A stretch of 64,000 bases of DNA from Erodium maritimum (Eukaryota; Streptophyta; Magnoliopsida; Geraniales; Geraniaceae): contig OY997592.1 in assembly GCA_963921825.1 (NCBI GenBank), forward strand, positions 57,308,336-57,372,335, in the 5' to 3' direction. The notes under the pieces were generated by a model. It was not told the origin of the DNA and did no database searches. It saw only the letters and a list, made by a program, of their open reading frames with translations. The stretch's first letter is position 1, and every line of letters begins with the position of its first letter. The position numbers and the translations under genes were made by a program. Positions 27,030-64,000 of the stretch are shown one piece after another.

Positions 27030-29230
27030 TTTTAGAATAAAAAGTATTTCATTAAATAGGAAATAGAGTCGTTACAATGGTCGTTACCTTTGAAGAGGTA
27101 GTGATCTAAAAACCTTCAGAATCGAACCGATGTAATAAGAAACGGTTATAGCAAGCATAACTAATACAAGAAATGTAACTAAAACAGGAATTGAAACCAA
27201 AACTTGAACAAAAATAAAATCCGAGCACTGTCAACTATTAAGAACCGCTCAAAGTAGAGCCTAAACGCTGCTTGGTCCTTGTTTTTCAAGGACTCGTTTT
27301 GTCAAATAAGCTACCGAATTTCTTTTTTTGATCAACATTTTTTTGATTTAAAACCCAACAGTTTAAAAGTGAAACCGAAGGACAAGAGCGGACCCTCATT
27401 ACTGACATTTACAAACAGGAGCACTGATCATGTGGACACAACATCAAACCAAAGGATTCCCAACAAGGGGGAAAACACAAACAGAAATAGGTCTCAAAAC
27501 TAGATACATACAATCAGCAAACATAAACCCAACAAGGGGTAAACCTAAACAATCACGAACAACCAAAAACTAACAGGTCTAATACCTAAATTTAACAAAC
27601 ATGAAGTTCCAAGTGAAGCACCTCAAACGATCTTCCTCTCCCGACAATAGCACCTCAAGAACCGTCTTATAACCAAAGCCCAAGCCAAATTGTAAGGAAC
27701 TTGGTGAGTTAAATGACCACCGACATGCCGACAACCAACACCAAATCCGACAAAGATAGGTCAGTAATTAAAAACTACTGAAAACTCTAAATCCTTATAA
27801 CCGAGCCCGACAGTCTTCAAACACAGGCCCAAAGACCAAATGAACTCGCCGGAGGCCAACACCTAAATACCGACGAGCCCCTACTCACATAGTAGGGTAA
27901 CTGACAAGACTGAGCAGAAAACAATTGCAAGGACAAGTCCGTGACTCACGAATTATAGTAGTTTATGGGCATACTCAAATACAACACGTCAAACCAGAAA
28001 AGCCAAAAGGGGTTACCGCGAGAGCTCGAATCAGCACCAAACCCAACCACAAAACCGTGTAGAGCTCCGGCGACACGAGCATGAACATGTCGGAGAAAGG
28101 TGGCTAGCAGGAGACCGACCAGAAACGTCCGGTCACCGCGAAACGACCTCCTTCCACAAGGCTGTCGGGGGACGAACTTGAACCTGACAGCCTGATTAGA
28201 GTGGTGGCTAGGGATGGCAAAATGCCCCATTCCCCACGGGGATCCCCGTCCCCGCCCCGCGCGGGACGGATTTGGGACAGAGATTTTTTAAACGGGACGG
28301 GATACGGGGAATTAAATGGGGATTTTGACGGGGACGGGGCGGGGACGGGGTAAGCAGTCTCCATCCCGCGGGGAACCCCGCCCCGCACTATTAGTTTTAA
28401 AATAAAATTTTAATAATATACACACAACACATTTGTTTTTGTTTTTTTGTTAAAGATTTGACTTCTATGCATGTAAAAAACTTTGATGGACACACAATTC
28501 TTGTTTTTACATTTGATATTTTCTTATTTATATTTTATATCTAAAATATAGAAAAATTAGTTGGAATATGTCAAATAGTGATTGTTGCTTATTTCACCAA
28601 TTTGAATATGTTATTTGTTTACAGATTTCACAGAATCCCATGATGAATGAAGTTGCTTCAAGTTCAACGTGCTGATTCTATTTATATCATTATGAAGTCA
28701 AGTTGGGAACTTTAAATTATGTTATAAGATATTTTGTTAAGACACTTTTTTATTATGGGTAACCTATTATGAGACATGGATGTCATCATCATGATGTTTA
28801 TTTTATATGTATGTTGTTTTAAATTATGGGTTGACTACGCTTTTTATTTAAAATTATGGATTGAGAGTTGTCATTTAAAATGTGCATTTTTCAGGTAATG
28901 AGGATGGGGTAGGAACGAAGTAGGGAATAAAATCCTCCGCGGGACGAGAAATAAGACGGGGAATAAAATCCCCGTTCCCCGCCCCATCCCCACGGGGTCC
29001 CAGCGGGACGGGGTCAACGCGGGTAGCGGGAACGCGGGACGGGGATGGGGACTGGGGTCCCCGCCCCATCCCCGCCCCATTGCCATCCCTAGTGGTGGCT
29101 CATCCCAAAGGCTCCTCCTGGAGTAGGTCCCTGGAACCGAACATGACCTCATCAGTAACAACGGGAGACATACCAGATTAAGAGATTTCTCTCGATAAAT
29201 GTTTCTGAATCGTTGAGTAAAATCCCTGAA
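27030..29230 (-). mobile_element. Decayed LINE fragment on the minus strand, split by a hAT element
   Basis: The minus strand ends at 27030-27060 with a LINE tail (ATTTAATGAAATACTTTTTA and a nine-A run). The coding-like minus frame 28200-27946 (FVPRQPCGRRSFRGDRTFLV and onward) is interrupted exactly at the hAT insertion 28209-29091; 29100-29230 probably continues it upstream. No family domain was recognised. 27060-27940 holds only short frames. Confidence 0.45.
28209..29091. mobile_element. Non-autonomous hAT element
   Basis: An 883-bp unit with terminal inverted repeats TAGGGATGGCAA and TTGCCATCCCTA and a perfect 8-bp target-site duplication GTGGTGGC at 28201-28208 and 29092-29099, the signature of the hAT superfamily. 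Both subterminal zones (28225-28385 and 28915-29080) are dominated by runs of CCCCGCCCC/GGGACGGGG-like sequence, and the middle (28390-28900) is AT-rich and noncoding. No transposase is present, so it depends on a related element in trans. It inserted into an older LINE fragment. Confidence 0.93.
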
Positions 29231-29449: not shown

Positions 29450-31526
29450 CTCTATTGAAAACCTCTGTTCTGCAACCATATCTCTCTATCTACAATTTCA
29501 TCTTCAGGCATTTGACTCTCTCTACACTGAAATTGCCAATTTCTCGCCATCAGATCCGTTTCGCAGTCTCAGTGAAGGTGAGTTCTTACAAAAAAAAAGT
29601 GATGTATAAATAGGACTTTTTGCACTTCTCCCTTCATTATTTTGAGTATTTTTTTGATGTTGTTTACATTTACAGTATTTATTATTGGATTTAGTTTAGG
29701 CATATAATTTGATTTTTGTTGTTTGTTATGCTTGAAACTCATTCTGCAACTGCTTCCATGACATCAACTTCATTTTTGTTCCCCAAACTGAAAAAAAAAA
29801 CTCATATGAATCATATGAGATAATCCCTTTTTCTTTGCTTTTTTTTTGCGCGAAACACAAATCCCTTTCCCCCTTTTTTTCTTCTTCTGCGCGATTAACT
29901 TCGAAGGCAGGCAGCCACCACTCTCTTCGCCGGCATCAAGTCTTCTTCATCAGGATTCACTACAACTCAATTACTCAAGTTAAGTTCCTAATTCTCATTG
30001 CTTGTTGATTTTTCTTGAATTGGAATTCAGACCTGAAATTTACAAACCTAAATTAGGTTGATGGTAACAAGAGAAGGTTAAGTGTTTGTCATGAGTAGCT
30101 GGTTCCTGTTTCTTTTTCCCTTGGCATCTGTTTAGGAGGACGAGTGATGTAGTTTTTGGGGCTGTTTTTTTTGGTGTTTTAGTGTTGAGTTGTTATTTTG
30201 TTGTGTTTGTTGCTGATTGAATTTGTAGTCATTGTGTGTGGATGCTGAATTTTTAGGGCTCATGATTTGTAAGAGTTTACACTGCCTTGGAAGAATGAAT
30301 AGGAATTCCAGATAGTATTCAACATGTACCCAATCCATGTACCCAATCCTTTCCCTATTTTATGTTTTGGACCAATTTGATATCTATTGGTTAAGGTCCC
30401 CAAAAAACTAACATAAACAATTTTCAATTTCCACTAATCCATTAAAGTCATGAACATTCATATTAATGTGTTCTAATATGAATTTTTAAGCGGTTTCAAG
30501 AAATGAGTAAGAGGAGAATGAAATTATCTTTCGATTAGATTTTGATATTTAAATTTCAATGTAATTCCAAATGTAGTAGCGGGGTGCAGGCTTTTGGAAG
30601 AAGTAAAGTGGTTTTTATTCTTGGTGTTTGTTTGTTCTTATTTTTGTTGGTTTGAGAAGGTTGACGTAGTTGATCCTTTTTTTTTGTTGTATCGCTTTTC
30701 ACCCCTTTTTTCCATCTTGGAAGAGGGGTATCATCAATAAATTCATCGCCTCTAAAAAAATAGTCATAGTTTTTTTATATTAATTATCGATGGCTACCCC
30801 TAAAAAAAATTCCTGGTTCCGCCCCTGCATATGATAGTAACTGGATTGGTCAGTTTCTTGGGATCACTGTGCTTTTGTTCCACAGAATCTGTCACTGGCT
30901 CATTTGTTGTAGTTTTATTTTCAATTGAATCCAATAGCATGATTTATGTCTACTTTTCTTAATGTAGTACTTGAATCTTCTTTATATCTATCATCTCTGT
31001 TGTTGAAGCTGCTATATGAGTACTAGAGCAATACACTTTAGCAAGCTTACTTTTTATTTTTTATGATATGTCCCCTCAACCTGTGTTTTTCCTGATGATT
31101 GTTGCTGTGCTCGGACTTTTGAGTTTGTGAAGCTTTTAATGGTAAACCAAAGCCAGTATCGTATTTCAAGATCCTCCCATCTTCAACGTGAGCTTCAATT
31201 GTTATTCTTATAACATTGCCTCTGTTTAGTATACCCCTAGAAATCCAGCCTTAACCGCCCACAAGCGGAGTCCCTACCACTGTCGTCCGGCCACACAACA
31301 TAAACGTGGTTCTGGTTTGTTGTTTTGTGCCTACACTAGCTCAATTGCCCAATTTGTTCACTTGTGCATCAAAGCATTAGGCTTAACTTCTCCTGTTCAG
31401 AATGTAGGTGTTAGAAATTTGCACAAAGAGCATTTTTGATTCATGTAGTTGATTTTATGCATAACATAATGATCCCAAAAACCATGTGACAGACCAAATT
31501 TAACTGTGTCCTACTCGTATCTGCAG
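29450..31526 (+). other. Probable 5' UTR exon(s) and leader intron of the LIP2 gene
   Basis: A CT-rich stretch at about 29430-29577 ends at a good donor (GTGAAG|GTGAGT). A second donor-like site lies near 29988. The acceptor is TATCTGCAG at 31518-31526, three bases before the LIP2 ATG. The sequence between is T-rich and noncoding. Parts of this leader are repeated at 34.5-35.06 kb (separate entry). Exon limits are predictions. Confidence 0.5.
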
Positions 31527-31529
31527 GAA

Positions 31530-32210
31530 ATGAGAGCTAATCGAGTTCTTGAAGTTTTGAAACTGGGTACTGTGAACTACTTGGACGCGCTTAAGCTACA
31601 GGAGAAGCTGCTTGCTGCTAGAAAAGCTCGTGAGATTCCCGACACTCTATTGTCCCTGCAGCACCCTCCGACATATACACTTGGCAAGCGACGCACTGAT
31701 CATAACCTACTAATCCCCGAGCCCGATCTGAAAAAGATCGGGGCTGAACTACACTACACACAAAGAGGAGGGGACATCACATTCCATGGCCCGCGTCAAG
31801 CCATCCTGTATCCCATCATTTCTCTCCGGGATATTGGAATAGGTGCTCGGAGTTATGTGGAGAAACTTGAGCTAACTATGATCGAATTAGCATCTCTGTA
31901 TGGTGTGGAGGCCCGTGCAGGAGGAAAGTGTGAGACCGGGGTTTGGGTTGGAGAAAGAAAGATCGGTGCTATCGGGGTAAGGATTTCGAGTGGAGTAACC
32001 TCTCATGGGTTGGCGTTTAATGTGGATCCAGATCTGAAATATTTCGAGCATATCGTGCCGTGTGGGATAGCTGACAAGGATGTCACATCACTGAGGAGGG
32101 AGGCGAATGTGGAGCTTCCTGCGGAAGAAGTAGTCCATGGACAGTTGATTTCCTGCTTCGGGAGACAGCTTGGTTACACTACCCTTGTTTGGAAGGATGA
32201 TATCAGATAA
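31530..32210 (+). CDS. LIP2: Lipoyl(octanoyl) transferase LIP2, mitochondrial type
   Basis: Single coding exon, 226 aa. The ATG at 31530 follows a splice acceptor at 31526; the frame continues upstream only through intron sequence, so 31530 is the best start. The enzyme moves octanoyl from acyl carrier protein to a lysine of lipoyl-domain proteins such as glycine cleavage H protein; lipoyl synthase (LIP1) then adds sulfur. The LplB/LipB fold is intact. RGGDITFHGPRQ (79-90) is the substrate loop, Lys144 sits in ERKIGAIGVRIS, and Cys178 in VPCGIADKDVTSL is the expected acyl-enzyme cysteine. Bacterial enzymes have HGPGQ; this protein has Arg at position 89. Length fits plant LIP2 (about 235 aa). 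The short N-terminus (MRANRVLEVLKLG) is typical of plant mitochondrial LIP2. The 3' UTR probably reaches about 32390. Confidence 0.93.
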   Translation: MRANRVLEVLKLGTVNYLDALKLQEKLLAARKAREIPDTLLSLQHPPTYTLGKRRTDHNLLIPEPDLKKIGAELHYTQRGGDITFHGPRQAILYPIISLRDIGIGARSYVEKLELTMIELASLYGVEARAGGKCETGVWVGERKIGAIGVRISSGVTSHGLAFNVDPDLKYFEHIVPCGIADKDVTSLRREANVELPAEEVVHGQLISCFGRQLGYTTLVWKDDIR

Positions 32211-40946: not shown

Positions 40947-43900
40947 TCAGTTGTACATGCTATTATATGGGCAAGGGCAAGGAGGAACTGTAACTTGAAC
41001 TATACCTTCAAGCATCAGCATAACCTTCTTCATGGTTGGCCTTATAGATGGGTCCTCTTGGATACACCAAATAGCAACCATCACAAACCTCTCCAGTTTC
41101 TTCATGTCACTCAAGACCTCCGCATCATCTTCAACCAGAACGTCTAAAGTTCCTCTTCGGCAGCAGTCATAAGCCCAATCGCTAAGAATCGCTTTCTCCT
41201 CCCCTTCGTTCTCTATGTCCACACTTTTCCTGCAACAAATGATCTCGAGTAGCAGCACACCGAAGCTGTACACGTCCACTTTCACAGTAATGGCCATGTG
41301 CCTGAACCACTCGGGTGCTACGTACCCTTTTGTTCCTCGAATAGCAGTGTGTGTACGACTTTGGTTCAACATCAAGAGCTTGGCCAACCCGAAATCAGCA
41401 ATTCGGACGTTGTAATACTCGTCAAGAAGTATGTTCTGAGGCTTTATATCGCAATGGATCACTTGAGTCTTGCATTCATCATGGAGATACACAAGTCCTC
41501 TCCCTATCCCTAAGGCGATCTGATTTCTTTGTTCCCAAGTCGGCTTTAAGTCCCCGTAAAGCAAGCTTGCCAAAGTGCCGTTGCTCAAGAACTCGTACAC
41601 CAGAAGGCGATTCTGTCCCTCGTTGCAGAAGCCAAGGAGCCTAACTAGATTCTTGTGATAAGTTTGGCCTATCACATTCACTTCAGCTTTGAATTCCTTT
41701 TCGGAGTCTTCCGCAACTCTGTTAAGCTTCTTGACAGCTATCAGGATCTTGGAACCCGTAGGATCTAACTCCCCTTTATAGACAATCCCAAAGGAGCCTC
41801 TTCCCAATTCTTCCTTGTAACCATCAGTGGCTTCAGCAAGCTCCTTGTAAGTGAAGCACTGCAAGTTCCCCTCCATGATGCTCTCACTCGCGCGAGGATG
41901 CATGCTCGAAGAAAACCTTTTGTTGTACCATATGAACGTCCCCATACACATAAAAAAGATAAACACCAAGTTGAAAAGAGCCGAGCTTCCCAAGAGAGCC
42001 GAAATGACAATAACCAAACCAATATGATCCTTTTTCTCTTGGACCGGCGCCATTCTTCCAGGTTTTTATAAAAGCCCTTCCGATTCCCAACTGCTCTCCC
42101 TCATATGACAGAGGCATCCTCTTCTTGTTACAAGCATCAACATTTAACACAGCCGCGGCGCACAGGCAATCATGCAGGCAAGAGGTCTTGCACGCTTCCT
42201 CAGTACTCGGTTGTATGCGCTCGTAATCAGATGCTATCCAATTCGTATTATCAATTGGAACAAGATCAAAAGCTTCTTCTGGGTTTCCCATGACAACGGC
42301 ATCACAAGAAAGGAAGTAGTCTGGCTTGCATCCCCCGTAGGGATCGCTTGCATTAAGCAAGGAGAAGTGTAAGGGACAATTACAAGCCACCCTGTGATAG
42401 TTGAGCCTGCACACACTGTTGTATCCGCAAGGGCCTGTGTACAAGCCTTGTAGCCCTCCGCCTAGTTTGGTGCATATGTTCTCAGGAATCAACCACAGGC
42501 GTGTCCAGCTGCCCTTCTTACTAGCTCAGACTTCCCCGGAGATAAGCCACCTTGGTTGACGGCGCCGTAAGGGTTCCATCAGTTGCAGGGGCTATGTAGT
42601 TCCGCGTGTTATTTGTCAGCGATAGATACATACTACCAGATTCGTTCAACACCATCACAGTCCCTGTGTTAACAGTGGCAGTATAGTAATAAGCATCGTA
42701 CTGATATCCACTCGCCAGGTTTATGGCGTTCATCAGCAAGTTCCCATCCATCTGTAGCCGAAACTGATACCTGTTGGAAATATTATTAAGGTTTGTGAGC
42801 TTTAATTTAAATTATGTATATCATATTTGACGAGGATTTAACTAACTTATCGTGTCAAATAACACACTATAATTAATTATATGCCAATTTATTATTTGAT
42901 TTTTGATGATAAAAAATTCGGTGAAAGATTATAACAGGAAAGAGTTCCTAGAAATGTTATTTAAAACATAAGACAGGCAATCCTTATTCCAATACCATCT
43001 TCTTTGTCTCCCACATCAAGCTTTGCCAACTTATAAGTTATGGGTAAACTTTATCTCACTGCCCTAAAAATACTTGCGTTTCGTCTTACTACCTTAACCA
43101 AACTTTGTTGCACCTCATTATCCTAACGAAACTTTTAGTTGCACTTTCATACCCGCCGTCAACTTGACATCCATTTTTAGATGGGAAATGGTAAAAAGTC
43201 CAAAATACCCTTCACTAGCACTCAAATTTTCAAAAGCATGTCATTGGTTTTCAAAAATTCTTTTTATTTATTTATTTTATATCAATCAGTTTTTTATTTT
43301 TAAAAAATCACTTTATTCTTAAAAAAATCAGAATTTATTTTTTAAAATTATTTTTTATTTTAAAAAGTAATATTTTATTTAAAAAAATCATATTTTATTT
43401 TTGAAAATCAGATTTTATTTTTGAAAATAATTTTTTTTAAAAAATTAGCTTTTGTTTTTAAAAACTATTTTTTATTTTTAAAATCAGATATTATTTTATT
43501 TTTAAAATCAGATTTAATTTTCAAAAAATCATTTAAAGAAAACAGTTTTCAAATATGTCCCTTCTTTAGAAAAAGCTGTTTAAAAAATGATTTTTAAACA
43601 AAATTAAAATCTGTTTTTTAAAAATAAAATCTTATTTTTTTGTAAAAAAATTGATTTTTAAAAATAAAACCTGATTTTAAAAAATAAAAAACTAAAATTT
43701 AAAAAAAATATATTTTTTAAAAATAAAATATTAATTTTTAAAATAAACACTAATTAAAAAAAATAAAATATTATTTTTTAAGAATAAAGTGATTTAAAAA
43801 AAATAAAAAACTGATTTATATAAAATAAATAAATAAAAAGAATTTTTGAAAACCAATGACATGCTTTTGAAAATTTGAGTGTTAGTGAAGGGTATTTTGG

Positions 43901-55235: not shown

Positions 55236-56430
55236 GTTCCATTTTGGAGTCTGTTAACTGATCTTCTTGCTTTAGTTGTTAATTTCTTTTGATTTAATTG
55301 CAAGTTGTGCAACTGATGGTAGTAGTGGCTGTAATTTCTACACAATGACATTATTATTTTTACAGCTCCACTCATTTCTTATATTTATAGACAGCTTTTG
55401 TTTCATCGCATGCTTGAGTTTTCACTCTTTCCATCTAGCTTCAATTGATTTAGGTATTGCTGATTGAAGTAAGCTGTGCGTTGTGTGGATTATCCATTTC
55501 AACTGATATGAAAACTTATACGTTATATGTCGTTCAATATATCTTTGTCCCTTTCACGTACTTTCAATTTTGTTTCTTTGTTTTCGTACCACCGGATGCA
55601 TCCCTGGCCCTGGAAACATCAGAGGTATACAGAATAGTTCTGGTTTTGAGTAAATCTATAATATATAGATTCTAAAATGCACATATCTTATTTGAAGCCA
55701 ATCCTTTTCTTAAAGCATGTACGTCGTTTGGAATTCGTGTAGTCAAGAATTGATGTTTAAAACAAGTTGGTGACCATCGTGTTGATTTTTATTCGGATTT
55801 TTGTGGTGACTGGATATTTATCGTTTTATTTGTAAAATTAGTTATAGACTTATAAAAACTGTAATTCAATGACTACAACGTTCAGTAATAATAAAACAAT
55901 ACATTAATTAAAATTAAACGTTACATAAAACCATTAAAACATTACATAGATTGTTTTAAAAAGAAGAAGGGAAAACTGCAAATGATTACTCTTAAATTGG
56001 CACGTTTAACTGATGCTTACTTTAAAGTTCAAAAATTACTGATACATACCTTAAAGTTATAACTCGTAACCAAAAACTCCTTCTGTCAATCAGTCCATCC
56101 ATTTTCTGTTAACATTTTCTAAAATACCCTCACTATAACCCTAATACCTCCCTGACTCTCAAAGAATTACAAAAATACCAAAAACCTAACCATATTGTTT
56201 TTCTTAATTATATATATTATTAATATTTTTAATAAAAAATACAAAACCTAATTTATCCTTTATCTCTACACCATCTGTACATATCAGGACCAATTTCTAA
56301 AAAGGCCTTATGCCAATATGTATTTTGAAAAAAACACTCACCCAATATATATTTTGAAAAAAGGCCTTCAAGACCTTGAAGTCAACAAAAGTTGGTCAAT
56401 GCCTATACTACCCTTTTGTATTTGGTCAAA
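55236..56430. other. 3' UTR of the AT-hook gene, then AT-rich DNA
   Basis: The 3' UTR may reach about 55670. From about 55970 (GGGAAAACTGCAAATGATTA) the sequence has the look of a MULE or MITE terminal region (phrases on Thr/Asn-poor AT DNA, AAATACCCTCACTATA), and 56300-56390 has two copies of ATATGTATTTTGAAAAAA/ATATATATTTTGAAAAAA. One of these could be the left end of the MULE at 56.4-64 kb; no terminal repeat can be proven because the right end is outside the window. Confidence 0.35.
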
Positions 56431-57108
56431 ATCCCTAAAATGAGGGTGAGCCCCCAATTTCCCCAGCCCTCGTCCCCGCCATTTTCAGACCAAAGCACCA
56501 CCTCTGAAAACCGCAACACCGTACCGAGCGCCGTCTACCGCCGTCCACCGAACCGACCGTGTTGTCAACCTCTTCGGGTCTGCCATTGAAGCAAGGTCCA
56601 AGTAAGTTCAATTCATCCTCATCCTCTTCCAATTTCGTACGTTTCAGTTGCTATAGGTTTGAATTGAACTTCGAATTGAGGATGGGGGGAAACGATTTTG
56701 AGTGGTATAAAATAAGTGAATGGATTGGAATGGAATGGGGGAGCAAAAACTGTAAATTGGGGATGGTCAGACAAGCTGAACCAGTAGGAGCCGCACGGCC
56801 AGATGAGGTTGAAGACACACCCCGCACGGTCGTATGTCACCGTGCGACCAGGTTAGGTAGAAGACAGAAACCGCACGGCTACACGCAAATGACATACCCG
56901 TGCGGTGGCATATGACATACACGGGTAGTGACCGCACGACCGTATACAGCCGTGCGACAGCGCTTGTCACTGCCCGTGCGGGTGGTTAGCCATCGTGCGG
57001 CCAGTTGCATATCCTGTAATTTGTAATATACTTTGTGAAATTGTAATTGTTGTTATTGTGTACAGGAATGTGTGAGGTTTTGTAATTGTTGTTTTTATTG
57101 TTACAGGA
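56430..57108 (+). promoter_or_regulatory. Probable 5' UTR exon and leader intron of the MULE transposase
   Basis: 56440-56601 is GC-rich, leader-like sequence ending at a donor (GTCCAA|GTAAGT). The acceptor TTGTTACAG at 57099-57106 is two bases before the transposase ATG at 57109. The presumed intron contains the first cluster of CCGCACGG-type motifs (56791-57000, nine sites counting variants). Splicing is a prediction. Confidence 0.5.
56791..57000. repeat. CCGCACGG motif cluster A (transposase leader intron)
   Basis: Exact CCGCACGG at 56791, 56822, 56871; exact CCGTGCGG at 56898 and 56974; one-base variants near 56840, 56932, 56950 and 56993. Both orientations, spacing 18-50 bp, no fixed period. 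Confidence 0.9.
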
Positions 57109-59544
57109 ATGGGTAGAGTTGCAATACGTGTTACTTACGGTGAGGAATATAAGGTAGAGGGTGGCAAGTATAACTGGAAATCAGAAAACGAGGTAGTTTT
57201 TAGTCTTCATGTTGATGATAGTACAACACTGAACACATTGAAGCAGCGCATTTATTCTAGGATCGGGGTGAAGGAAAGTGAGACAAAATTAAAACTTAGT
57301 TACGTAGCTAAGGGCTTTGAAGGAGGATTGCCGCCAGAGGAGATCATTGAAAATGTTAGTCTTCAATGTTTTGTAATGGAGAACAGTAATTTAGAATCCA
57401 GGGTCGCCTTACGTGTAGAACTGATCAAGAAAGATATCATTGGCGCCGTAGCTGAAACGGTGGAAGTTGAACAGGGGGTGCATTGTGTTGCAGTTGAGAA
57501 TGCTGAACATGGAAATGGTGGGCGGGATACTTTTTTTGACGTTGATATTTGGAGTGGTGCGGGTGTTAATGAAAACCTAGTTATTCGGCGGCGTCAACCT
57601 AGAGAATGTGATTCGGATTGTGGAGTATATTCAGAAGCATCATCTTCTACGCCACCACCGGTAAGCTTGGATGAAGACAACGGTCAAATTGTGGAGTATG
57701 TTGCTCGGAACCAGCAGTTTCCGTTAGATACGGTCGATCCAGAACAAACCAGGATCAGATTTAGGGATGGGTCAGATTTAGTAGTTGGCAAAGAGTTTCG
57801 GGACAAGCAAGCAGTGATGATGTATCTGACAGAGCTTCAGCAGAAGAAGAATTTTTGGATATGCCGTGATAGATCAAACAAGGAATTATACGTTGCAAAT
57901 TGTGTTAGTGATAATTGTGGATGGAGAGTGCGTGCAGCAAAAGATTGGGGATCGAATACTTTCTCCATCAGAATTTATGAGTCTTTGCATACTTGTCAGA
58001 CTAGTGATCGGAACTCCCTAAAAGGCTGTGTGACAATGGAACAAATTGCTTGTATGTTGGCTATAGAATATGCTGGTCAGAAAAAGATTCCCAGACCTTT
58101 GCTTATTGAAGACAATTTGAAGGGACAGAGTTTAGGCTTGTACAAATACTGGAAATGTTGGAAGGCAAGAACACTGGCGTTGATTAAACTTGTAGGGGAT
58201 CCTGAATTAAGTTATGGATTACCGCCTCTTTATGGAACAGGTTCGAAAGCATAACAAAGGCGCAGTAACTCATTTGGAGGTGGATGAACACAATAGATTT
58301 AAATATGTGTTCGTAGCATATCGGCCATGCATTACTGGATTTAACACTGCTTTAAGGAAGGTGCTCGCAGTAGATGCGACGTGGTTGAAAACAAAGTATA
58401 AAGGGATTATGGTAATTGCTACATGTCAAGATGCTAATCATCACCAATATCCAATTGCATGGGCGATAATTCATGACTCGGAGAACAACGAGTCATGGGG
58501 ATAGTTCTTTGAAAAGTTGAGGTCGTTGATCCCGGACGAGGAGGACTTGGTTATAATTTCTAATAGGCATAAAAGTATCATCCATGCAGTGGCGACCCTC
58601 TACCCAACTGCTAAACATGGCCATTGTAGGTGGCATCTGACCCAAAATGTCAGAGATTATCATGAGGGTCAGCCGAAAGACAAATTGTCAAGTTTATTCG
58701 AAAAAATTGCTGATGCTTACATAGTGGAGAGGTTCCTTGCCAAGTTCAAAAAGTTGAAAGCAGTGTACCCCAAGGCAGCGTAATATCTGGAGACAACGAA
58801 CATAGAACGTCCTCAGTGGGCGAGAGCTTACTTCGAAGCCGCTCGGTACAATCTCATGACCACGAACGGTGATGAGTATATCAACAATGCAATACTAGAA
58901 GAGAGACAGTGGCATATTGTAGAGCTGTTAAACGCCAGGCAAAGACTGGTTAGTCATTGGTTCATGATTCGTTTAGATGTGTTGGACAAAATACCTCCTT
59001 CCCAAGCTGTTACTCCTAAGGTAGAGAGTATCATGTCAAGTAGGAATGATCTAGTGAAAGACATCCGAATAATACCAATGAACCTACACGGCCAGTATCG
59101 AGTTAATAGTGAAAATAGTGACGTCTATGTTGATTTGGGGATGAAGCGGTGTAGTTGCCGGGTGTTTAATCTCGATAGAATTCCTTGTGAACATGACTTA
59201 GCGTGTTGTGAGCATGCTCGGGTAGAGATATATTCCTTTGCTCAAAATATTACACGGTAGAAGCATGGGCTCCAGCATATACTGGAACCATTTACTCAGT
59301 GTTGTGAGAATCAGAGTGGAATCTTGATGAGGTTTCGCCTGAAGGTCGTATAGAGGTTCTCCCTCCTGATTATGAAGTGAGACGCGGTAGACTAACTGAA
59401 AGAAGAATCCCTTCAGCAGGTGAGGTGCCAAGAGCGGCTCAAGCGGCTCCGAAGCGTCCCCGAAAATGTGGAAATTGTTCTAATGTTGGTCACAACAAAC
59501 GCACATGCCCTGCGCTTGCTTCTGCTAGAGCATCTACTGTGTAA
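57109..59544 (+). pseudogene. MuDR-type (MULE) transposase, decayed
   Basis: The first frame (57109-58254, 381 codons) starts MGRVAIRVTYGEEYKVEGGK, a PB1-like N-terminal region. FRDKQAVMMYLTELQQKKNF, CRDRSNKELYVANC and CGWRVRAAKDWGS match the MuDR DBD. After a frameshift near 58235 the MULE catalytic domain follows: AVDATWLKTKYKG (first Asp), ISNRHKSI (usual second Asp now Asn), CRWHLTQN, and the Glu region near YLETTNIERPQWAR. Next come a SWIM zinc finger (CSCRVFNLDRIPCEH, near 59155) and a C-terminal knuckle CGNCSNVGHNKRTC. Stops: TAG 58502 (a Trp codon in relatives), TAA 58781, TGA 59305; a second frameshift lies near 59235. The product would cut and paste the element; this copy is dead. 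It lies upstream of four small ORFs. Confidence 0.92.
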
Positions 59545-59584
59545 GGTTTTTAATTTCATTCTGCTATTATTTGGTGACTGAAGG

Positions 59585-59587
<3 letters not shown>

Positions 59588-59633
<46 letters not shown>
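59588..59633. repeat. (TA)n microsatellite
   Basis: About 22 TA dinucleotides, directly downstream of the transposase stop. Confidence 0.95.
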
Positions 59634-59635
<2 letters not shown>

Positions 59636-59752
59636 ATTATGCTACTATTTGGTGACTGATGATACTAGATGTATTTCATTATGATACTATTTAGGTTTGA
59701 TGTGAATCGTTTGGTGTTAGTGGTTGCATTGTTCAGGGTGTAATGCATTTTT

Positions 59753-59943
59753 CCATGCGGTCATCATTGGTCACCGTGCGGTCGAACAGAGAGCAATACT
59801 CCCGCACAAGGTTTGTCCGCACGGTTGGTTATCATGTTGTGCGGCTGATCGGTGCGGCTTTATACCCACCCGTGCGCAATAAAATATGTGCTGAAATGGT
59901 CTCTGATCAACCGTGCGGTACTATAAACACCCGTGCGGCCAGA
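59753..59943. repeat. CCGCACGG motif cluster B
   Basis: Exact sites: CCGTGCGG at 59774, 59911, 59931; CCGCACGG at 59817; variants CCATGCGG (59753), CCCGCACAAG (59801), TTGTGCGGC, GGTGCGGC and CCGTGCGC (59870). It lies between the transposase 3' end and the 3' end of the minus-strand ORF at 60148. Confidence 0.88.
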
Positions 59944-60147
59944 TGACCACACAGTGTTTATACGATACTGTTTAACCATAAACATGACAACATTCAATCA
60001 ATAACTAGCCATGTAAAGACAACTTAAACATGTTCCACGTTAAGTACCAACCATACTTATTACAACAAATACTCACACGTACTGCAAAATTTGTGGTCTT
60101 TGTTTCCGAGACAAAGTCGGGCACATATTACCTAAACCCTAAACGGA

Positions 60148-60390
60148 TTACCAACGCGCTGGACCGTAGTCCTCACCCGTGAATGACAAGATGTAGAACT
60201 CAAGATTGTCAAGCTCTTCCACGACTTTGTTAGCTTTCTGCATGTCTTCCTCTGACCATTCTGTTGTATCGCCCCCCCGGACCTCCTCCCGAACCTTCTC
60301 ACGAAGTTGGACCGCCTTCGGAAGGATCCGTAGGAGAGCTGTCTTGATTTTCTCGAACCTCAACATCATCTCACCATTGTGTGTAGTCAT
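60148..60390 (-). CDS. Passenger ORF 1 of the MULE, unknown, 80 aa
   Basis: An intact frame MTTHNGEMMLRFEKIKTALL to FTGEDYGPARW. The sequence predicts an all-alpha protein: LRFEKIKTALLRILPKAVQL and MQKANKVVEELDNLEFYIL are amphipathic, with a charged loop (REEVRGGDTTEWSEEDM) between. I recognise no family. A TATA box CCTATAAAAG lies at 60454-60462 on the minus strand, about 64 bp before the ATG, with motif clusters on both sides. The intact frame, the promoter and the conserved architecture with neighbouring ORFs support a real gene. Function unknown; a partner of the transposase or a motif-binding factor would be guesses. Confidence 0.58.
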   Translation of the reverse strand: MTTHNGEMMLRFEKIKTALLRILPKAVQLREKVREEVRGGDTTEWSEEDMQKANKVVEELDNLEFYILSFTGEDYGPARW

Positions 60391-60453
60391 TGCTGAATTT
60401 CTGATTATCTGATCAATAGATGAAGTGAGAAAAGTGAGTGAACACTCACACTC

Positions 60454-60462
60454 TTTTATAGG
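60454..60462 (-). promoter_or_regulatory. TATA box of passenger ORF 1
   Basis: The minus strand reads CGCCTATAAAAGAG. The same GCCTATAAA element precedes the ORF at 62685-63080. Confidence 0.65.
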
Positions 60463-60565
60463 CGAGGTTGTTAGTGTAGTTAGTGGGTTCCATTAAATGT
60501 GGGGTGGTGGTCAGAGGGTTCCATTAAATGTGGGGTGGTTAAGGTTCAGAATTTATGTCATATGA

Positions 60566-60900
60566 CCGCACATGTGGATGTCAGACCCGCACGACTCTTG
60601 GTTAAGGCCGCACGGTTGATTAAGATGACCGCATGGAAGTGTTGGTGAAGTGAGATACGTGATGCTGCACGGCGTGTTCAACGTCGCACGGTTGTAAAAT
60701 CATGTAGCCCGTGCGGGTATATTTATAGACCGCATGGAAGTGTTGGTCACTTAAATTGATGAAGTGAGATACGTGATGCCGCACGGCGTACTCAACGCCG
60801 CGCGGTTGTAAACTCATGTAGCCCGTGCGGGTATATTTATAGACCACATGGGTGAGAATGATAACCGCATGGTCATGTTATTGACCGCATGGTTGTACAG
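60566..60900. repeat. CCGCACGG motif cluster C with a direct duplication
   Basis: Exact sites: CCGCACGG at 60608 and 60779; CCGTGCGG at 60709 and 60823; variants CCGCATGG at 60629, 60730, 60874 and 60893, plus others. A unit of about 100-115 bp starting GACCGCATGGAAGTGTTGGT occurs twice in tandem (about 60627-60727 and 60728-60841); the second copy has a 13-bp insert. Confidence 0.88.
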
Positions 60901-60963
60901 AGACATATGCAAAAATTACTTTCAAAGTTGAAATCCATTATTATTGAAGTCGATGACATTACA

Positions 60964-61314
60964 TTACATGGAAGACAGTTGGTTAATAATACTCTCATCA
61001 TTGTCTTTCACCTGAGCCATCCACTGAAGCCAACGCTGGAACCAAGTAGGCTCCACGACCGAATCTAAGTCATCCTCAATCCCCCAACCAGACCTTTCAA
61101 ACGGGGGTCCAGGATATGGTGCGTCTTTCTCACGCATGATTCGGTCAATGACTTCCCACCGCTCAATGACGTCTTGGAGTCCTCGGTCGAACTCAATCAC
61201 CCACGCGGGTTCAGGTCGTAGGCCCCTACGTGGTTCGCGTACTCCTAGTATGTTTCTGGCAGCTTCGCTTCGCCTCCATCGTCGCTCAAGACGTGCATCG
61301 TGGTTTGGGTCCAT
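60964..61314 (-). CDS. Passenger ORF 2 of the MULE, unknown, 116 aa
   Basis: An intact frame beginning MDPNHDARLERRWRRSEAAR. It has a basic N-terminus, then RPEPAWVIEFDRGLQDVIER (helical), RIMREKDAPYPGPPFERSGW and an aromatic C-terminal part VEPTWFQRWLQWMAQ. It is paralogous to the ORF at 62685-63080: shared blocks M-(D/E)-PNHD, PEPAW-(V/S)-IE, (R/L)-MREK, (V/F)-EP-(T/S)-WFQ and a final short helix. I recognise no known family. A TATA box ATTTATAGG (minus CCTATAAAT, 61488-61496) lies about 175 bp upstream, the same distance as in the paralogue. Conservation between two copies that now differ at most positions suggests selection on the protein. Confidence 0.66.
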   Translation of the reverse strand: MDPNHDARLERRWRRSEAARNILGVREPRRGLRPEPAWVIEFDRGLQDVIERWEVIDRIMREKDAPYPGPPFERSGWGIEDDLDSVVEPTWFQRWLQWMAQVKDNDESIINQLSSM

Positions 61315-61487
61315 GCTGTCACAAACATAATATGGTTACACCACTTAAACAAACACACACATATGCAGAAAACGATAATTCATGAACACAAGTCGAATAC
61401 CCAAGAAGAAGAGCTTGATGTCGTACAGATGGAACGAAGTTAGTGAAGAGGTATGCTTTGAAGATGATAATGAGGCTAATCAACCTC

Positions 61488-61496
61488 ATTTATAGG
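61488..61496 (-). promoter_or_regulatory. TATA box of passenger ORF 2
   Basis: The minus strand reads TTTCCTATAAATGAGG. Its distance to the ATG is about 175 bp. The segment between them is homologous to 63080-63260 (AGTCGAATACCC.AGAAGAAG is shared). Confidence 0.62.
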
Positions 61497-61525
61497 AAAT
61501 TAGTAAGGGTTTAGGCATTAATGTC

Positions 61526-61903
61526 GCATGGGGAGTTGTTTCTAACACATTAATGGGTTCGACCTTCAATGGTTGACTCATTACTGTTCAGTCCATCTGG
61601 TAGGTGAAAGCCCGTGCGGTAGATACGTACACCCGCACGAGTGCCGCATGAGTGAAAGTAATCCGTCAGCAATGTCTGACCGCACGGGTGAGAAACCCTA
61701 ATATCTATCCCATGCGGCACCCGTGCGGGTGTACGTATCTGCCGCATGGTTCAGTCACAGACCCAAAATGTTCCCTATTCCCTATGTGCTTGTTTTGATG
61801 ACGACATTAATTTTGTTAGTACCTAATACCCACCAACCCAACCAAATGATATGGATTAGGGTTAGGGTGTGCTTGAAGAGGGTTGTAAGTATATGCCGCA
61901 CGG
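61526..61903. repeat. CCGCACGG motif cluster D with an inverted repeat
   Basis: Exact sites: CCGTGCGG at 61612 and 61721; CCGCACGG at 61680 and 61896; plus CCGCACGA, CCGCATGA, CCATGCGG and CCGCATGG variants. Arms at 61611-61649 and 61709-61747 are inverted copies (about 38 bp, about 85 percent identical), each holding three motif sites around a GATACGTACACC core, with a 60-bp spacer. Confidence 0.88.
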
Positions 61904-62071
61904 TTCAGTCACATACCCTAATTAATGAAACCCACCACCAACCACTTATTACTGAAACCTACCACCCACTCAACATTTATGGAAGTCACCACGCCTTTAA
62001 AACCCAGTCTCCACTCTCCACTCTGCACTCCACTCTTCACTCATCACTCTCCACTCTTAATTTCATCAACT

Positions 62072-62281
62072 ATGTCTGCACAAAGTGCTAAACTTAGTGA
62101 TAACCTTGAACTCAAGGAGGTATTGGACGAGCTCAAGAAGTTAAAGACAACTCTGCTGAAAGTGAAATAGCAGGAAGATGCACTGCTTCAGGAGTTGAAG
62201 GAGGGCTTGAAGCAGCTCGCTGAAATTAAACAATCAATACTGTCCTTGACTAACCAATCTGCTAGCACTTCCCGTTGGTAA
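62072..62281 (+). pseudogene. Passenger ORF 3 of the MULE, coiled-coil protein, one in-frame TAG
   Basis: The plus frame MSAQSAKLSDNLELKEVLDE, LKKLKTTLLKVK, then TAG (62168-62170), then QEDALLQELKEGLKQLAEIK and QSILSLTNQSASTSRW, ending TAA at 62281; 69 codons in all. Leu/Ile/Val residues recur at heptad-like spacing on both sides of the stop, so the whole is one predicted coiled coil broken by a single nonsense codon (probably formerly AAG, GAG or CAG). A TATA-like CTTTAAAA lies at 61995-62002, about 70 bp upstream, and the CT-rich leader fits a transcript start. This is the only accessory ORF on the same strand as the transposase. No family recognised. Confidence 0.55.
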
Positions 62282-62435
62282 TATGGTAATATGCGTTTGT
62301 AATAAGTATGGTTGTAATGTAAATCATGTTTCTCATTGAAGTTGAATCAACTTTAATGTGAATCGTGATATTTGATTGACGTTTAGGGTTTGTACCTTCC
62401 TTTTAGCCCTCTTTCATAGGAACAGAACCAACCCG

Positions 62436-62615
62436 CACGACTCTTCTATCGACCCGCACGAGTATTTAATAGAACCGCACGGGCATCGCATGGGACCGAT
62501 AATAGGGTTTCTCAGCCGCACGGGTATGTAAGTAGACCGCACGACTTAATAATAGGGTTTGGGTCCTATGCATTTCTTGTACTCGCACGGGTGTGTTTAG
62601 GACCGTACGGGCAGA
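62436..62615. repeat. CCGCACGG motif cluster E
   Basis: Exact CCGCACGG at 62475 and 62516; variants CCCGCACGA (62432, 62454), CCGCACGA (62537), CTCGCACGG (62583) and CCGTACGG (62603). It lies between the convergent 3' ends of ORF 3 and ORF 4. Here nearly all sites share one orientation. Confidence 0.86.
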
Positions 62616-62684
62616 GATCATTCGGAAAACAACTATCAAGAAGTAAAATAAAATTTATATTTATTAATCCGAAAACCAAATACA

Positions 62685-63080
62685 CTAAGTAGCCCGGAGA
62701 GTGTTAATAAGACTCATCTCGATTTCTTTGTTCCGATCCATCCACTCTACGTAACCCTGGAACCAAGAAGGCTCCTCGAAAGAATCAAGCAGGTCATCCT
62801 CCCTTATCGAAGGGTGTGCTCGAAGAGGGTTTGCACCGTAAGGGGGTGGGGGACATGGTAGATGCTTCTCGCGCATGAGTTGCTCAATTTGTTCCAAGCG
62901 CTCATTTTCTTCTTCGAGTATGCGGTAGTACTCGATCGACCATGCTGGTTCTGGGGCTTGATACAACCGTTCGGGAACGCGAACTATCCGGCCGTCCCTG
63001 ATTCCAACTATGGTTCTGGCATTCTGCTGTCACCTCGAGGGGATGAAGCCAGGAAGAAGAAGATCGTGGTTTGGTTCCAT
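62685..63080 (-). pseudogene. Passenger ORF 4 of the MULE, paralogue of ORF 2, one in-frame TGA
   Basis: The ATG at 63080 gives MEPNHDLLLPGFIPSR, then TGA (63030-63032, probably a CGA Arg codon originally), then QQNARTIVGIRDGRIVRVPE and PEPAWSIEYYRILEEENERL, EQLMREKHLPCPPPPYG, EEPSWFQGYVEWMDR, stop at 62685. Alignable along its whole length with the ORF at 60964-61314. A downstream Met (62966) gives 93 aa, but the paralogue shows the true start is at 63080. TATA box CCTATAAATGGG at 63255-63264, about 175 bp upstream. Function unknown. Confidence 0.62.
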
Positions 63081-63254
63081 CCTGTCCCAAACATATACAC
63101 GCCTACACAACAAAAACAACTAACAAATGATAATGCAAGAACAGAAGTCGAATACCCGAGAAGAAGAAGAGGTTGATGCCGTATGGATGAGATTAAGTTA
63201 GTGTAGAGGGAAGCTTTGACGAGGGCAGTGAAGATAATGGGTCTGCTGAAGCCC

Positions 63255-63264
63255 ATTTATAGGC
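63255..63264 (-). promoter_or_regulatory. TATA box of passenger ORF 4
   Basis: The minus strand reads GCCTATAAATGGGC. Spacing to the ATG matches passenger ORF 2. Confidence 0.62.
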
Positions 63265-63442
63265 GTAATGAAATTAATAGGCATGCCAAGTTATTGTTGA
63301 GACATTAATAGGCATTCAGAGGTGTTGTTGGGATATTAAATGCATTCAAGGTGTGGTTGGGACATTCATTGTGCCAACAATACTAATATATTTGAATTCA
63401 AAATTCAAATATTGGACTGTCTGTGGACAAAATGAACGACAA

Positions 63443-63790
63443 CGTCGGGTTGACAGCAACCCGTGCGGGTGACGTATAAAACAACGTCGGGGTTGACAGG
63501 AACCCGTGCGGGTGACGTATGGCACTCACGGGTGCACACAAACGACGTCGGGGTTGACAACAAACCGTACGGCCATAAGCATATCCCCGCACGGTTGCCA
63601 GAACCTAAGTCAGGGTTGACAGCACCCCGTACGGCCAGATACGGGACCGCACGGTTCATCAGAGAGTCTGTCACTGAACATAATTCTGGCCGCCCGGGTG
63701 TGCTTATTGCCGCACGGGTGACCAGTTGCATTTCTGCACTAACGTACCCATCACCTTCACCATGCGACAAGTATACTAGCCGCACGGCGA
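63443..63790. repeat. CCGCACGG motif cluster F with tandem units
   Basis: Four degenerate units of 40-60 bp, each with GTCGGGGTTGACAG (or a close variant) followed by AACCCGTGCGGGTGACGTAT-like sequence (starts about 63443, 63485, 63546, 63608). Exact motif sites: CCGTGCGG at 63461 and 63504; CCGCACGG at 63587, 63647, 63710 and 63780. It lies upstream of the ORF 4 promoter. Confidence 0.88.
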
Positions 63791-63977
63791 AGTGCATTTC
63801 AACATTTTTGGACATGGAACTCTTGCCATTCAACACAAGACATAAGTACCAAAATAGAAACACAATTACATTCAAATCCTTCATGTCCAAAACCCAAGTA
63901 CCAAATAGTCCAAAACCTAAGAAGAACATAGTAAGACAATTACAAACAAATACTTGATGTCCAAAACCTACAAAAGA

Positions 63978-64000
63978 AGTTGCCAGTTCGACATGGCCTC
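63978..64000 (-). CDS. C-terminal end of a further minus-strand ORF leaving the window
   Basis: From the right edge the minus strand reads EAMSNWQLLL followed by TAG. It then passes into AT-rich sequence resembling the 3' flank of passenger ORF 1 (both contain short ACATG/ATTACAA-type segments). Only about seven to ten codons are visible, so this is a weak call. If real, the MULE carries a fifth accessory ORF. Confidence 0.25.

Follow-up and report, generated by a model that had tools for sequence, protein, structure and literature searches.

We analysed a 64,000-nucleotide stretch of Erodium maritimum DNA (contig OY997592.1, positions 57,308,336 to 57,372,335; called the window here), whose right end carries a Mutator-like element (MULE). 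One CpG-bearing 8-mer, CCGCACGG or CCGTGCGG on the opposite strand, is densely repeated in the noncoding gaps of this element. Its exact copies are confined to these gaps, their flanks are near-random, and in most clusters the sites are phased at multiples of two helical turns. We put at about even (probability roughly 0.5) the chance that the sites form an array bound by a protein encoded by the MULE family, which would mark the element as self for anti-silencing or coordinated activation.

Number and location of the sites

The region from 56791, where the first exact site starts, to 63787, where the last one ends, contains 14 copies of CCGCACGG and 11 copies of CCGTGCGG, exactly the numbers counted by eye in the preliminary description of this DNA. 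The expected count was 0.10 under an order-1 Markov model and 0.17 under an order-2 model, against 25 observed; the earlier expectation of about 0.2 per 7 kb was of this order. No exact copy was present in the remaining 57 kb of the window, so high density of the 8-mer is not a general property of the surrounding host DNA. It is the most frequent 8-mer of the region. Elsewhere, the top 8-mer count per 7-kb interval (step 500; low-complexity words filtered) was 6. GC-rich CCCGTCCC/CCCCGTCC words, which belong to an unrelated repeat, reach up to 6 per 7 kb (28232-28988 and the 22.5-33 kb intervals). When CCGCACGG, CCGTGCGG and two longer forms were searched as whole words in the literature, with thin coverage of subscription papers, no transposon paper was retrieved by title.

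The element takes up the window from approximately 56.3 kb onwards and was analysed as 56291-64000 (7710 bp). It contains a transposase gene and four small open reading frames (ORFs), designated a, b1, c and b2. Allowing one mismatch, we found 53 sites in the element (25 exact and 28 one-mismatch sites, the many one-base variants noticed previously), while 1-56700 held 17 one-mismatch sites versus 12.3 ± 4.2 expected. The noncoding gaps contain 51 of the 53 sites (binomial P 2e-14). The preliminary description had found none inside the transposase or the small ORFs; this holds for all 25 exact sites, and at up to one mismatch two coding sites were detected, at 58839 (transposase) and 62967 (b2). 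The site density of coding DNA (0.56 per kb) is thus near the background of 0.30 per kb in 1-56700.

The sites fall into the six clusters described before, apart from a stray exact site at 61896, and site-bearing gaps are of every kind. Cluster A (56791-57000; 9 sites, 5 exact) lies upstream of the transposase gene with irregular spacing. Cluster B (59753-59938; 7 sites, 4 exact) fills the tail-to-tail gap between the transposase and ORF a, and cluster C (60587-60892; 12 sites, 4 exact) lies in the gap that separates ORF a, at its 5′ side, from b1, at its 3′ end. Cluster D (61612-61903) lies where b1 and c are arranged head to head, with 6 sites at 61612-61749 (3 exact) followed by the stray site. 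Cluster E (62433-62610; 7 sites, 2 exact) occupies the tail-to-tail gap between c and b2, with every site in the plus orientation, and cluster F (63461-63787; 9 sites, 6 exact) lies upstream of b2. Orientation is mixed in clusters A, B, C, D and F; overall, 32 of 50 sites are plus when the stray site is excluded, and orientation is biased within clusters (permutation P 0.004). All six gaps are therefore occupied by arrays, including two tail-to-tail gaps where no promoter is expected.

Sequence, flanks and spacing of the sites

Information is confined to the 8-mer, and flank positions within 11 bases carry at most about 0.35 bit each. Compared in pairs over 26 flank bases, the sites have a mean identity of 0.277, with 7 of 1275 pairs above 0.6, and 43 distinct 12-mers were present among 51 sites. 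A mild signal of up to 0.48 bit was observed in the columns 20-21 bp from the site, because phased neighbour sites are expected there. The 10 rows reported by Tandem Repeats Finder (TRF) were all short local arrays, and some of them had nothing to do with the motif. Local tandem duplications occur in two clusters, C and F, and one of them, in C, is 114 bp. The near-random flanks and the TRF result rule out a satellite or tandem repeat longer than the motif, in agreement with the earlier statement that this is not a simple satellite. With such flanks, the array looks like a selected array of protein sites.

An old 21-bp tandem repeat or GC-rich filler, in which the motif survived by chance, is very unlikely. 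The 21-bp steps and single orientation of cluster E and the local duplications in clusters C and F fit such an origin, as does the decay of this copy, in which 23 of the 28 one-mismatch variants are transitions. However, decay would be expected across the whole repeat unit and not to spare exactly eight bases, and the flank identity, the diversity of 12-mers and the mixed orientation of five clusters argue against it. Successive mismatch classes in the clusters contained 25, 26 and 10 sites, the last versus 4.2 expected by chance; a modest tail of decayed sites exists, and this distribution also speaks against an old repeat, although by itself it is not decisive.

The one-mismatch variants are concentrated at position 6 (C to T, 7 sites), position 8 (G to A, 7), position 1 (C to T, 4) and position 4 (C to T, 3), giving a consensus of roughly YCGYAYGR. 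Pure CpG decay was rejected as their source: CpG transitions account for 8 of the 28, but a single one of the four equivalent positions accounts for 7 of them; several of these sites have flanks in common and are not fully independent. Motif types shared within each cluster, as in VANDAL21, were also sought, and the permutation test was not significant (P 0.099; 46 sites, variants seen at least three times). In the rest of the noncoding DNA of the element, the observed/expected CpG ratio is 0.53-0.68 and that of TG+CA is 1.27-1.38, versus 0.74 and 1.06 in 1-56000. This low CpG and TG/CA excess suggests past methylation of the noncoding DNA. Most CpGs are kept in the sites despite these CpG-poor surroundings.

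Sites of a host transcription factor (BZR-type or similar), gathered by the element as enhancers, are an unlikely explanation of the array. Within CCGTGCGG lies the hexamer CGTGCG, a form of the brassinosteroid response element (CGTGYG) that such a factor could read. In the MULE (7710 bp), CGTGYG was counted 38 times versus 14 in the remaining 56290 bp of the window, an excess due largely to the 25 exact sites, which include it. Clusters A, C, D and F are on the 5′ side of genes, and TATA-like words are present at three small genes. On the other hand, the gaps that hold clusters B and E are tail-to-tail, and the common variant CCGCATGG, which makes up 7 of the 28 one-mismatch sites, abolishes CGTGYG. 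The outer bases beyond this core are retained in 46 and 44 of 51 sites, which also does not fit a host factor reading CGTGYG.

Spacing was compared with random placement within clusters at a minimum gap of 8, 11 or 18 bp (4000 sets each). Neighbour gaps of 19-22 bp account for 19 of 44, and gaps in the classes 19-22, 40-43 or 60-64 bp for 27 of 44. Depending on the minimum gap, the null means were 4.7-12.5 for the first class and 7.4-14.8 for the three classes together. The three-class count was attained by 0 of 4000 random sets at each minimum gap, and the 19-22 bp class alone gave P values of 0, 0 and 0.0085 at 8, 11 and 18 bp, respectively. After removal of the tandem duplicate unit, the counts were 18 of 40 and 25 of 40. 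The gaps in cluster E are 21, 21, 41, 21, 46 and 20 bp, and those in cluster F are 43, 61, 22, 40, 20, 43, 20 and 70 bp. The best period per cluster was 15.5 (A), 19.6 (B), 19.7 (C), 21.8 (D, weak), 21.3 (E) and 20.9 bp (F), and the periodogram without cluster A and the duplicate gave 20.9 bp. Thus, the sites are phased at multiples of two helical turns in most clusters, with the exception of A. The preliminary description had called orientation and spacing irregular; this stands for the mixed orientation and for the spacing of cluster A, but not for the spacing of clusters B, C, E and F (approximately 21, 42 and 62 bp).

The element, its transposase and the small ORFs

The transposase gene (57109-59544, plus strand) is a broken copy. 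Its translated frames matched Plant_all_beta, DBD_Tnp_Mut (PF03108), MULE (PF10551, two pieces) and SWIM (PF04434) above the Pfam cut-off, and a zinc knuckle was below it (E 0.011). These matches identify the element as a MULE, as proposed before. The lesions are a frame shift near 58214, in-frame stops at 58502-58504 and 58781-58783, and a stop with a frame shift near 59258-59307. Neither end of the element was located, and the right one seems to lie beyond the window. In a self-comparison of 56291-64000 for terminal repeats, minus-strand matches were confined to the clusters or lay between them, in an element that is cut by the window. The N-terminal 381 residues of the transposase gave 1892 candidates in a protein collection, none at E ≤ 0.001; this absence says little, as plant proteins are seemingly scarce in that collection, because a MULE transposase would be expected to match many. 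No homologue was matched in viral contigs, and no structured RNA was detected at the Rfam gathering threshold in 56000-64000.

ORF a (60148-60390, minus strand) encodes 80 acidic residues (isoelectric point, pI, 5.0), and b1 (60964-61314, minus strand) encodes 116; neither matched Pfam. The first third of b1 is basic (pI 11.8 over 33 residues), and the remainder is acidic. Its predicted structure is mostly helical at low confidence (predicted local distance difference test, pLDDT, 68; predicted template modelling score, pTM, 0.55; two-row alignment). ORF c (62072-62281, plus strand; approximately 69 residues) has an in-frame stop at 62168-62170, and b2 (62685-63080, minus strand), a paralogue of b1, has one at 63030-63032. 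The two paralogues share 47% identity over the aligned piece, with a local score of 178 versus at most 59 in 500 shuffles. Together with their upstream DNA, b1 and b2 form a segmental duplication approximately 1.75 kb apart (60982-61500 and 62703-63270). The ratio of nonsynonymous to synonymous substitution (dN/dS) between them is 0.42 (bootstrap 0.19-0.85; 998 of 1000 bootstraps usable), which favours constraint, at a high dS of 0.93. A search for b1 homologues gave 14 candidates, none at E ≤ 1, in a collection seemingly so poor in plant proteins that the absence says little, and in the PDB the match to VbhA was not significant (E 0.88-0.90).

The TATA-like word CCTATAAA lies on the minus strand upstream of ORF a (60455-60462), b1 (61489-61496) and b2 (63256-63263). 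On the plus strand it reads TTTATAGG; 56291-64000 has no copies of this word other than these three, and each lies upstream of a different minus-strand small ORF. ORFs a and c are otherwise not visibly alike, and TTGTAATAAGTATGGTTG is common to both downstream of their stops (near 60060-60090 and 62300-62330). Elsewhere in the window, host ORFs of a kinase-domain (receptor-kinase-like) type and a lipoyl-ligase type were found at 40947-42053 and 31506-32210, respectively; like the plant-type Pfam domains of the MULE, they mark the window as plant-like DNA.

Comparison with known systems and a possible role of the array

VANC21 binds YAGTATTAY, which is packed in the noncoding parts of VANDAL21, and removes methylation, and the target of VANC6 is AGTTGTCC/AC (PMC5735166). 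RNA-directed DNA methylation attacks the same noncoding VANDAL regions (PMC10398659). According to the latter paper, element-encoded anti-silencing has been worked out closely only for Arabidopsis VANDAL elements, with TnpA and MURA, named as further element proteins tied to methylation loss, as partial cases.

The array is likened to the VANC, TnpA and MURA systems by its anatomy. Its design matches the published VANC21 pattern of short motifs packed in the noncoding DNA of one family, as the preliminary description had pointed out (PMC5735166). VANDAL21 with VANC21 and VANDAL6 with VANC6 are likewise MULEs with several genes and a short motif that is dense in noncoding DNA, poor in coding DNA and rare elsewhere (PMC5735166, PMC10398659). 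In contrast, the present motif is CpG-rich and unrelated to either VANC target; VANDAL motifs lie in tandem repeats of a single orientation, whereas here the flanks are unrelated, the orientation is mixed and the phasing is approximately 21 bp. VANC binding and demethylation are published, whereas for the present array both are putative.

A true VANDAL-family element with a diverged VANC and motif is the least probable of the alternatives. The overall plan is alike, and SWIM with a possible zinc knuckle is listed for the VANDAL group (PMC6446971). However, neither YAGTATTAY nor AGTTGTMC occurs in the 7710 bp (0 each), and the small ORFs have only 69-131 residues. No VANC-like domain (DUF1985 or DUF287) was detected when 14 ORF stretches were scanned in the element, which is cut by the window end. 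On these data VANDAL membership appears unsupported. The earlier view that the system looks unrelated to VANDAL and would be independent is compatible with these absences in the part of the element inside the window; the element itself runs off its end.

In En/Spm TnpA and CACTA elements, a repeated motif is present in direct and inverted orientation, with an element-encoded binder and a link to methylation (PMC2613891, PMC10398659). Those motifs are limited to subterminal DNA (in Tgmt*, 159 and 732 bp from the ends; PMC2613891, PMC10398659), whereas the present ones fill internal gaps of a MULE. Subterminal confinement of the CACTA type was ruled out by the clusters in all six gaps over 7 kb. 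Ac/Ds elements also contain many copies of a short CpG-holding motif, AAACGG, bound cooperatively by the element protein; in contrast, these are hAT elements whose sites are confined to the outermost 200 bp or so and serve transposition (PMC3260210). The MURA protein of MuDR is a MULE transposase that induces hypomethylation of its own terminal repeats, but it acts at terminal inverted repeats and not at arrays between genes (PMC10398659).

Transposase-recognition sites for transposition, like the Ac subterminal AAACGG and the Spm TnpA sites but expanded inward, are quite unlikely to account for the array. The short motif in many copies and both orientations, the cooperative binding of AAACGG by the Ac transposase (PMC3260210) and the MuDR-type DNA-binding domain in the present transposase agree with this explanation. 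It is opposed by location, since the Ac sites are found no more than about 200 bp from the ends (PMC3260210) and here internal gaps are filled over 7 kb.

If the array is bound by a protein of the MULE family, that protein would recognize approximately YCGYAYGR, its best site being CCGCACGG. Candidate binders are a small ORF product, the DNA-binding domain of the transposase and a gene beyond the window end; the latter two are just as possible as the first. Many sites are approximately 21 bp (two helical turns) apart, so that the protein could occupy adjacent sites from the same side of the helix. As arrays are found in promoter-side gaps and in tail-to-tail gaps, binding would mark the whole element as self and open chromatin or prevent silencing, rather than only mark the ends for cutting.

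Several observations weigh against this reading. The single copy at hand is dead, with stops and frame shifts in the transposase, and no second copy was found within the window (best match 19 bases, E 0.37). No known DNA-binding domain was found in the small ORFs by the Pfam scan, and the overall pI of a, b1 and the b2 piece is acidic (4.5-5.0). The upstream DNA of b1 and b2 is more alike (79% over 174 columns; 74% over 187 in a second comparison) than the coding DNA (approximately 65% over 252 columns), a difference that argues either for promoter constraint or against strong constraint on the protein. A younger age of the array could also explain the retained CpGs. The gap classes were picked after the distances were seen, so the spacing P values are optimistic. 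Phasing is absent in cluster A and weak in D, and the pooled free-period periodogram is modest, its best period of 21.3 bp being equalled by 8 of 500 random sets. The mid-points of the 7 double gaps are barely motif-like (mean 3.7 versus 4.5 mismatches), only a weak signal of hidden decayed sites there.

A more specific form of the self-marking array seems possible but doubtful: a non-VANDAL MULE lineage may have independently evolved self-recognition and anti-silencing, in which a CpG-bearing 8-mer recurs at a two-helical-turn phase on one DNA face and methylation of the sites switches cooperative binding. With its phasing of 21 bp and CpGs in every site, the array offers a direct test of cooperative, methylation-sensitive binding. 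If this is true, a further motif system, unrelated to that of VANDAL, would exist in another MULE, and noncoding self-address arrays would evolve repeatedly.

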